DNA from: Paludibacteraceae bacterium
GTDB taxonomy: Bacteria > Bacteroidota > Bacteroidia > Bacteroidales > Paludibacteraceae
Assembly (NCBI GenBank): GCA_017384225.1
Contig: JAFNUD010000088.1
Location: 1 to 32,381, forward strand
DNA length: 32,381 nucleotides
Reading direction: 5' to 3'
Under the pieces are notes generated by a model. That model had not been told where the DNA came from. It saw only the letters and a list, made by a program, of their open reading frames with translations, and made no database searches. Below, in pieces: positions 1,085-4,557 of this stretch (the first letter of the stretch is position 1; the number at the start of each line of letters is the position of its first letter). A program made the translations under genes and the position numbers.

Positions 1085-1116
1085 TTTGCAAATATCAAAA
1101 AAATGTATTACCTTTG
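1085..1116 (+). promoter_or_regulatory. Bacteroidota-type promoter of candidate ncRNA
   Basis: TTTG at 1085-1088, exactly 20 nt, then TACCTTTG at 1109-1116, with an A-rich spacer. This is the same architecture as the promoters of the housekeeping genes in this window. Transcription would start near 1122. No plausible start codon follows closely, but a structured region with its own terminator does. Confidence 0.8.
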
Positions 1117-1121
1117 CACCG

Positions 1122-1373
1122 CTTTGCACTTGGTGCGGGCATTACATATTGAAAGTGTTTTCGCTGTCCTACAAGAAAATGTGGAAGTTTTCAAGAACTA
1201 GGGATAAACGAATGACACTCACTACTTGCTTGTTTATGGCAGGGCACACATTGATAACTAATGTGTCCTATCCCCATAACATTCAGGTGTGGGGATTAGC
1301 ATCGTTTATTATAGTTCAGGTCATTCCACAACCTTCTTGTTGATAAGCGTGAGCAAGCCTCACACTTTTTTTG
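1122..1373 (+). ncRNA. Candidate structured non-coding RNA of about 250 nt
   Basis: This stretch lies between a strong promoter and an intrinsic terminator and shows no convincing protein. Complementary segments form a long irregular rod: AAAGTGT 1152-1158 with ACACTTT 1362-1368; CGCT 1162-1165 with AGCG 1346-1349; CAAGAA 1172-1177 with TTCTTG 1334-1339; TGTGG 1180-1184 with CCACA 1326-1330; ATAAACGA 1204-1211 with TCGTTTAT 1302-1309. Inside lie two hairpins, ACACATT/AATGTGT (loop GATAACT) and ATCCCCA/TGGGGAT. AATGAC 1211-1216 can alternatively pair with GTCATT 1320-1325, giving a competing or pseudoknotted form. I do not recognise RNase P, SRP or tmRNA motifs. 6S RNA or a Bacteroidales-specific RNA family is possible but unproven. 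The 85-codon open frame across it looks incidental. Confidence 0.6.
1349..1373 (+). terminator. Intrinsic terminator of the candidate ncRNA
   Basis: Stem GTGAG 1349-1353 with CTCAC 1359-1363, loop CAAGC, then seven T residues (1366-1372). The 3' arm overlaps the segment that would close the RNA's basal stem, so terminator hairpin and basal helix are mutually exclusive. Confidence 0.7.
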
Positions 1374-4023: not shown

Positions 4024-4054
4024 TTTGCTCTTTGAAAAAAATGTAGTAATTTTG
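4024..4054 (+). promoter_or_regulatory. Promoter of the small-protein/SHOCT gene group
   Basis: TTTG 4024-4027, 19 nt, TAATTTTG 4047-4054. A second -7-like TAATTTTG sits at 3985-3992. Transcription from the closer one would start near 4059, at the edge of a 7-bp hairpin. Confidence 0.6.
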
Positions 4055-4058
4055 CAAC

Positions 4059-4326
4059 GTTTTGGGGAGAAATCCAAAACATGAAGCGTTATTTACTTTT
4101 GACCCGACAAACAGAAATCTGGTACATTTCAATAGCAGAAGGGCAAAGAGTAATCGTTTCCGCGTATATGAAATCCTTGCGAAGTCATATATGGCGTGGA
4201 GCATTATTTCTCTTTGTTTCTGTAGGGTTTACCAGAGCCTTGTTTGTGATGAAGGAAAAAATACTCTGCGCTTTTTTGTATATGTATAACAAAAATAGAC
4301 TATAATCTAATTTAAAATTTTATCTT
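4059..4326 (+). other. Long leader (about 270 nt), possibly encoding a small ORF
   Basis: The predicted transcript begins with a hairpin (GTTTTGG 4059-4065 with CCAAAAC 4074-4080) and then runs about 245 nt before the next gene. Two overlapping open frames exist here: 4081-4305 (74 codons, ATG directly after the hairpin, one hydrophobic segment) and one in another frame from 4062. Neither has a composition that convinces me. A structured regulatory leader and a real small membrane protein are both possible; I lean to the leader. Confidence 0.4.
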
Positions 4327-4557
4327 ATGACACACATGTATGAAGTAGCTGTAAAGCACAGCTATCTGGTAAATGGCATTCACCTTCCAGCGGGTCTTTC
4401 AGTACGAGTTGCCACTCCTTTTTTCGCAAATCCACTAAACTCTCAAGAGGGTAAAATTCTTATTGCAAAAGCATATCTTATGCAATGTGGATTGGATTTA
4501 ACAGGGTGTCTTCAAACAATCACCTCAGCACATTTTGAAGCATTTAGATTGTCATAA
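4327..4557 (+). CDS. Small hypothetical protein (76 aa), possibly DUF6140-like
   Basis: This 76-residue protein starts MTHMYEVAVKHSYLVNGIHL; a second ATG at 4336 is equally possible. The pattern of an N-terminal beta-strand, then VNGIxLPAGLSVxV, then NPxxxxxGKxxIxxAY and GLDL resembles the small Bacteroidales proteins grouped as DUF6140. That is from memory of the family pattern and needs a profile search. No membrane segment is seen. It is the first gene after a long leader and lies 57 nt ahead of the first SHOCT gene, so co-transcription is likely. Function unknown. Confidence 0.6.
   Translation: MTHMYEVAVKHSYLVNGIHLPAGLSVRVATPFFANPLNSQEGKILIAKAYLMQCGLDLTGCLQTITSAHFEAFRLS

Follow-up and report, generated by a model that had tools for sequence, protein, structure and literature searches.

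Features of the locus

The window, that is, the whole 32,381-nt stretch of DNA analysed here, comes from a draft genome of a Paludibacteraceae bacterium (88% complete, 5.8% contamination) and carries on its + strand a structured RNA of ~220 nt, made up of a rod and a terminator (1152–1372). Reading of the sequence places a promoter upstream, as originally predicted (1085–1116, + strand): TTTG at 1085–1088, a 20-nt spacer and TAccTTTG at 1109–1116, matching the TTTG/TAnnTTTG consensus that we take to be the Bacteroidetes promoter type (−7 box). A sigma-70 scan of 600–2000 returned a single + strand site, at 1734–1761, and none at this promoter. The RNA is also preceded by ACATAT (1145–1150, + strand), a copy of an ACATA element that is conserved 5′ of the RNA: 118 of 151 loci have it at most 45 nt before the core. 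The frame at 1086–1343 (85 amino acids (aa), TTG start) is a mechanical open reading frame (ORF) only.

The region is predicted to be highly stable: the minimum free energy (MFE) is −81.2 kcal/mol for 1128–1373 (z = −5.08) and −87.0 kcal/mol for 1116–1375 (z = −4.99), and in both cases none of 200 dinucleotide shuffles was as stable. All five complementary blocks of the original prediction are present in the MFE fold, and AATGAC (1211–1216) has in the window copy the second partner proposed for it, the exact complement GTCATT at 1320–1325. The two hairpins said to cap the rod are not what the prediction gives, as pair 1274/1292 of the second one has a probability of 0.002.

Four strands can be combined in two ways (all features on the + strand). 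In the MFE fold, strands 2 and 3 form an extended (antiterminator) hairpin (1171–1340) with the helices H1 (1171–1177/1334–1340), H2 (1180–1186/1324–1330) and H3 (1195–1200/1312–1317), a further helix at 1203–1211/1302–1310 and an apical one at 1213–1239/1274–1298. In the other arrangement, strands 1 and 2 form hairpin I (1154–1219; stems 1154–1163/1209–1219 and 1165–1170/1201–1206), which bears hairpin A (1175–1192; GAAAAU[GUGGAA]GUUUUC), and strands 3 and 4 form hairpin II (1287–1365; 1287–1294/1358–1365 and 1303–1311/1341–1349), the terminator stem, which bears hairpin B (1318–1334; AGGU[CAUUCCACA]ACCU). The loop of hairpin A is complementary to that of hairpin B; in a fixed register the outermost pair of the window's hairpin A is A·C, the actual pairing being off by one. 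A U-tract (U7, 1366–1372) directly follows hairpin II. The hairpin plus U7 of the predicted intrinsic terminator is thus present at 1349–1372, but not as the small hairpin 1349–1363 alone: the terminator backed across relatives is hairpin II (1287–1365 + U7). Folded by itself, hairpin II reaches −24.1 kcal/mol (z = −3.7), and the 5′ domain (1142–1285) −32.7 kcal/mol with a z of only −1.7.

Behind the RNA lies a 61-aa ORF (1455–1640, + strand), the presumed regulated gene of the window copy, which is syntenic in genome G215 and has two weak partial relatives among viral contigs. Between leader and ORF, Rfam places a DUF805b cis-regulatory element (RF02914; 1399–1433, + strand; 42.2 bits, gathering score 35.6). 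A second such element lies at 1699–1733; each stands directly 5′ of a small ORF (61 and 78 aa), and neither ORF has a Pfam match.

The window holds a second, divergent copy (4047–4277, + strand), with TAatTTTG at 4047–4054, a core at 4100–4256 that is matched by the covariance model R2 described below (E = 2.3e-4), a hairpin II at 4193–4271 that folds at −26.5 kcal/mol and a U-tract at 4272–4277. A 76-aa ORF (4327–4557, + strand) starts 71 nt after the core of this copy and, judged by eye, distantly resembles the 61-aa ORF behind the first.

Homologues and distribution

The family was revealed by structure models alone, given that DNA similarity yielded nearly nothing beyond the locus itself and G215. 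By BLAST, the closest copy is that of G215 (94% identical, same neighbours). A search of 150 family genomes returned, apart from the locus itself, a single 24-nt match, and among 178 genus genomes 20 were matched at E ≤ 0.1, with long matches only at the own locus and in G215 and short stretches (E ≥ 0.0018) in the other 18. A model built from just these two sequences (R1) recovered further full-length relatives within the genus at E values of 1.2e-5 to 1.5e-3, and one weaker relative at 0.067; they include another copy in the window's own genome and have sequence motifs and compensatory changes in common. In the resulting seed alignment A7 (11 rows), 91.7% of cells pair, compared with 83.9 ± 0.7% after shuffling and 37–46% in slid registers. 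Both sides change in 16 of 58 pairs (shuffled, 10.5; 2 of 500 shuffles as high), and further pair types showed no excess (47 versus 49.5 in shuffles).

At E ≤ 0.05, the second covariance model, R2, matched 155 of the 178 genus genomes and 226 of the 358 family genomes (24 of 33 genera). At E ≤ 1e-3 it matched 71 of the 393 order genomes (42 of 206 genera), and at E ≤ 1e-4, 11 of the 395 class genomes; the four genome samples overlap. Of the 11, 6 belong to the same order, counting the genome of the window, and the other 5 come from elsewhere in the class. Within the own genome, R2 matches 16 places at E ≤ 0.05, and at 11 of these E is below 1e-6. Copy numbers are lower bounds because the genome searches scored 6–14 candidates per genome, in groups. 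Recovery of copies absent from the seed alignment, at E values down to 1.0e-42 for the best of them (G213:C48:14639-14812), indicates that the family is more than a product of chance.

At the gathering score, Rfam 15 has no match at the RNA in the window, as originally predicted, or in 20 loci from the order search. Seven further copies have none at the RNA up to E 0.5, and the RNA region of the window gave nothing convincing up to E 10. The window RNA had no match in phages or plasmids. Phages likewise gave none for a copy from the order search, nor plasmids for a copy from the genus, and an exact 20-mer was not found in viral contigs. The literature searched contained no description of the RNA family. 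The RNA belongs to a family of long 5′ leaders of Bacteroidales that is not listed in Rfam 15.

Some copies have neighbours or duplicates of their own. In locus L107 a second RNA copy seems to begin soon after the first U-tract (about bases 455–503), which would make a tandem leader; two copies of genome G211 (contigs C62 and C79; loci L041 and L044) have flanks that are identical as far as printed, owing either to recent duplication or to an artefact of the assembly; and one 3-kb locus (L094) contains, besides its RNA copy, a SAM-II riboswitch (RF01726; 2027–2086).

Position and downstream genes

Comparisons between copies used 159 of 161 loci as base-by-base rows, after removal of one reverse-strand match and one duplicate. 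These loci are the best model matches together with picks from the matches listed, not a random sample, and many come from one genus. TAnnTTTG occurs 20–160 nt 5′ of the core in 135 of the 159 loci (8 of 77 for a stretch used as control), and in 101 loci TTG stands 18–23 nt ahead of this upstream element. Within 140 nt 3′ of the core, TAnnTTTG was found in 15 of 159 loci and its TTG-spaced form in none. UUUU follows the core by no more than 45 nt in 151 of 159 loci (upstream window, 50 of 159). With six loci near contig ends set aside, 138 of the 153 testable loci have an ORF of 60 aa or more in the same orientation whose start lies 20–200 nt beyond the core, at a median distance of 77 nt (quartiles, 70–84); 15 loci have no ORF by this rule, and the corresponding counts were 20 of 156 for the divergent side and 297 of 790 for random same-strand positions. 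The positions of the upstream promoter element, the U-tract and the co-oriented ORF show that promoter, RNA and gene belong together as a unit; we infer that the gene would be transcribed from the upstream promoter. The RNA had been proposed to be an independent RNA gene and is instead the 5′ leader of a protein gene. In several genus loci (L048, L051, L077, L078 and others), the motif ACGGGkCGTTTGGAGCCrAykTCCC lies about 15–45 nt past the U-tract and before the start codon; loosely DUF805b-like, it is possibly a second leader element.

What most of the proteins encoded downstream have in common is export rather than a pathway. By a crude, home-made hydropathy test, signal-peptide-like N termini are present in 85 of 118 downstream proteins with 100 aa or more and in 18 of 125 neighbours (Fisher p = 1.8e-20). 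After removal of near-duplicates by eye, Pfam scanning covered 109 of the 138 proteins and identified 58 families and no common pathway, the commonest being BspA-type LRR_5 (11), FNIP (5), Lcl_C (4), MBOAT (3) and Por_Secre_tail (3). Given that the presumed regulated genes mostly encode exported or surface proteins, a link between the regulon and the cell envelope is probable. A cytosolic location seems likelier for some targets, namely short helix-turn-helix-like proteins and a methyltransferase-like protein, and the hydropathy test detects no signal peptide in either the 61-aa or the 76-aa ORF of the window.

Two mutually exclusive folds

We measured, in kcal/mol, the complementarity of two strands within a locus (own) and with the same strand taken from other loci (swapped). 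This strand-swap test used 154 loci: 86 of 88 close (core-set) loci and 68 of 71 divergent ones, the divergent set consisting of the order-search copies, to which 8 divergent ones from the own genome and a small number from its genus and family were added. Among the 68 divergent loci, complementarity was locus-specific for hairpin I (own −19.31, swapped −12.57; difference −6.74), for hairpin II (−24.20 and −15.29; −8.91) and for the central 2:3 strands, termed s2p.s3 (−20.12 and −15.52; −4.59). Two control pairings gave −9.78 versus −9.56 and −7.69 versus −7.83. The outer strands of the rod (s2.s4) resembled these controls: own −9.39 and swapped −8.78, a difference of −0.60 compared with −0.21 and +0.14 for the negative controls. 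In the window, s2.s4 corresponds to 1142–1169 with 1342–1365, and includes 1162–1165/1346–1349 and most of 1152–1158/1362–1368. The long rod of the original prediction was therefore rejected as the native fold in its outer part, for which locus-specific covariation was lacking in relatives, and the own-versus-swapped tests identify hairpins I and II, not the outer rod stem, as the conserved frame. In 67 of 68 divergent and 86 of 86 close loci, hairpins I and II together outweigh the pairings that their strands make in the rod. In the 86 close loci, the strands hardly vary and the tests are accordingly weak (own minus swapped: I, −0.46; II, −1.04; central, −2.25; controls, +0.05 and −0.32). The terminator base b.c (the 13 nt before the U-tract with the apical 3′ strand; tests of b.c and c.d used 155 loci) gave −14.61 own and −11.06 swapped in 69 loci, the best of 10 shuffles reaching −11.45.

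The helices of the extended hairpin behave likewise across 159 loci. H1 has −8.29 own and −0.97 swapped (difference −7.32), and H3, which joins the 3′ internal-loop strand of hairpin I to the 5′ internal-loop strand of hairpin II, −7.35 and −2.28 (−5.07). Their control pairings differ by only −0.08 and −0.09 (−1.37 versus −1.30 and −0.84 versus −0.75). Six hypervariable pairs of H1 are paired in 97–100% of the 159 rows (shuffled, 42–48%), its innermost pair being without covariation (150 of 159 paired; shuffled, 149.6), and H2 is 96–100% paired.

The nucleotides flanking H2, seemingly conserved internal loops, pair with one another—GGY with RCC in hairpin B, GAAA with UUUC in hairpin A. Pairs 1 and 2 of hairpin A are formed in 146 and 157 of 159 rows (shuffled, 136.7 and 152.6), with G–C and U–A replacements in several lineages; pairs 3 and 4 equalled the shuffles in the same rows. 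In hairpin B, pair 3 is U–A in 124, C–G in 21 and U·G in 9 of 159 rows, giving 154 paired compared with 134.7 after shuffling (0 of 1,000 as high); its two G–C pairs are uninformative because they hardly vary and the GG was located by search. The loops of A and B pair with each other as H2, which makes H2 also a kissing contact of 7 bp.

The figures for H1, H2 and the central strands lean upward because these pairs belong to the search model R2; hairpins I, II, A and B and most of H3 are not in that model. The rows are related and shuffles ignore phylogeny; the control pairings have the same relatedness, yet show little. Compensatory changes, named beforehand as the means of judging the stems, are many among the homologues, and the locus-specific complementarity of both I + II and 2:3 bears out the proposal that two folds compete. 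Taken as a whole, the original prediction was partly confirmed in what it observed and partly supported in how it read it.

Several other pairings were tried and dropped. The P0 stem, between the 5′ A-tract and the U-tract, is conserved but lacks locus-specific covariation: 94 of 151 loci form 8 of 8 pairs, compared with 77–83 when a foreign tail is used, and c.d gave −8.68 own and −8.38 swapped. Its extension beyond the U-tract gave −7.44 own and swapped alike. An alternative hairpin of GGAACCUC with GAGGUUCC is not general (perfect in 14 of 149 loci; own −8.31, swapped −7.69), and an ACCC/GGGU helix in R2 that competes with hairpin B has no two-sided change and was discounted. Just a few copies (L083, L085) have a locus-specific hairpin (AGACCUCGUGU/ACACGAGGUCU and similar) that joins the 3′ strand of H1 to the sequence ahead of the U-tract.

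The central 2:3 helix is incompatible with the base of hairpin II, and both are conserved. When the halves of 73 loci were folded alone, the two halves had mean z values of −3.13 (55 of 73 below −2) and −4.00 (70 of 73), and the MFE of the whole sequence averaged −76.0 kcal/mol compared with −62.0 kcal/mol for the two halves summed. Since the whole folds below the sum of its halves, termination would need kinetic or other control; and given that I and II beat the rod pairings while the whole-sequence MFE is lower, the RNA has what a switch requires, one fold being available early in transcription and another favoured later.

Attenuation model and alternatives

On the basis of these comparisons, the locus is probably a transcription attenuator free of a leader peptide, acting mostly on genes of exported proteins. 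Judged from sequence, the RNA would lie in the 5′ untranslated region (UTR) of a gene, hairpin II plus the U-tract would provide an intrinsic terminator ahead of that gene, and s2p.s3 with H1–H3 a conserved and mutually exclusive antiterminator helix. What we infer here is termination, its direction and its signal. Hairpin I would form first and hairpin II would then be completed, terminating transcription before the gene; alternatively, the 7-bp kissing contact between A and B could spread into the 2:3 duplex, which would dismantle the base of the terminator and let RNA polymerase read into the gene.

Tentatively, and as a possibility more than an expectation, we suggest that such an intramolecular switch from kissing loop to extended duplex serves as a general attenuator without a leader peptide, present in at least 10 copies per genome and placing a large share of the Bacteroidales surface proteome under one common envelope or export signal. 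To our knowledge, a fold exchange from kissing contact to extended duplex is otherwise known only from dimerising RNAs. If this is true, a major order of gut bacteria contains a widespread class of cis-acting RNA without an Rfam entry, which decides the production of many surface and secreted proteins (BspA-type leucine-rich-repeat (LRR) proteins, lipoproteins, outer-membrane proteins and O-acyltransferases). Each genome would then provide many testable switches, with a shared signal to search for. Work on RNA folding would gain a naturally occurring kissing-to-duplex device, and the ways in which gut commensals alter their surface would become more accessible to study.

Alternatively, the RNA might be a static structured 5′ UTR that sets the stability, localisation or translation of mRNAs for exported proteins, the folds being intermediates and the U-tract terminating little. 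Genes linked by export rather than by pathway would suit such a role, and the loop–loop contacts could belong to one rigid structure, given that a kissing complex can accommodate I, II, A, B and H2 together; however, a covarying stem ends directly at the U-tract, and s2p.s3, a helix that excludes the base of this stem, covaries too, which makes a static UTR unlikely.

We regard it as distinctly improbable that the copies are a multi-copy family of trans-acting small RNAs placed upstream of genes by chance. A promoter and a terminator of their own, the 16 matches within a single genome and the hypervariable stretches are features such a family could have, yet the spacing to the next gene is narrow and the orientation fixed (138 of 153), no locus of 159 retains a spaced promoter element for the gene, and the variable stretches pair inside the molecule. 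One such family is FopS of Bacteroides thetaiotaomicron, likewise a multi-copy Bacteroidales RNA, with outer-membrane targets; FopS RNAs are reported to be trans-acting and about 65–70 nt long (PMC11697453), a size that the window's ~220-nt rod and terminator (1152–1372) does not share.

A DNA-level palindrome—an attachment site, a miniature transposon or a recombination site—is very improbable: the sequence is strongly palindromic and multi-copy, with some order-level matches near contig ends, but folding is more favourable for the + strand (−87.0 kcal/mol, z = −4.99) than for the − strand (−70.9 kcal/mol, z = −3.39), G·U pairs are tolerated on one strand, copies are alike in structure more than in sequence, and RNA, U-tract and gene keep one constant orientation. 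A 6S-like RNA that binds RNA polymerase, which the long rod of the MFE fold and a genus-copy consensus rod with a central asymmetric bubble recall, has next to nothing left in its favour, as neither the 6S nor the Bacteroidales-1 model matches, a Bacteroidales-1 candidate lies elsewhere in the genome, the outer rod stem is unsupported and the position is gene-linked.

Relation to known RNAs

Attenuation as proposed here has a close counterpart in the trp-type attenuators, 5′ leaders in which four strands form a terminator (3:4), an antiterminator (2:3) and an anti-antiterminator (1:2). The window family has the same four-strand logic of 1:2, 2:3 and 3:4 in a 5′ leader, but differs in three respects. 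Its strands 2 and 3 also hold complementary hairpin loops; it has many copies per genome, ahead of unrelated genes; and it lacks a consistent leader peptide. A trp-like peptide was rejected because no ATG or ATG ORF is consistent among 135 leaders: ATG occurs in 77 of them compared with 103 expected from shuffling, and an ATG-initiated ORF of at least 6 codons (only ATG starts were counted) in 64.

Riboswitches with loop–loop contacts, some of them equipped with a terminator, include those for lysine and cobalamin. The guanidine-II riboswitch is reported to have a kissing loop between P1 and P2 (PMC9094411). A leader RNA with kissing hairpins is what the window family shares with riboswitches of this kind. 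Its kissing loops, unlike theirs, span 7 bp and are variable, and its gene set is not metabolic; a metabolic riboswitch was rejected on the latter ground and because the gene context of the RNA copies suggests no ligand. The window RNA would work like a transcription attenuator and is a member of no family among those tested.

A 132-bp palindromic candidate from human microbiomes, HMP2_4205, is described as mostly from Bacteroidetes, with a predicted terminator and near TPR genes (PMC8040213); it could be a fragment of the window's RNA family.

Identity with 6S or Bacteroidales-1 RNA, a possibility raised by the original prediction, was rejected on the evidence of covariance models: positions 1040–1420 of the window match neither model up to E 10, and 6S (RF00013) has no match in the genome. 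Bacteroidales-1/6S (RF01693) is also a long RNA and occurs in the same genome, but its model does not match the leader RNAs. Its sole match there is a candidate at C65:39880–40078 (L011, 1501–1699), which at 58.9 bits lies below the cut-off of 60 and may have been missed by standard annotation.
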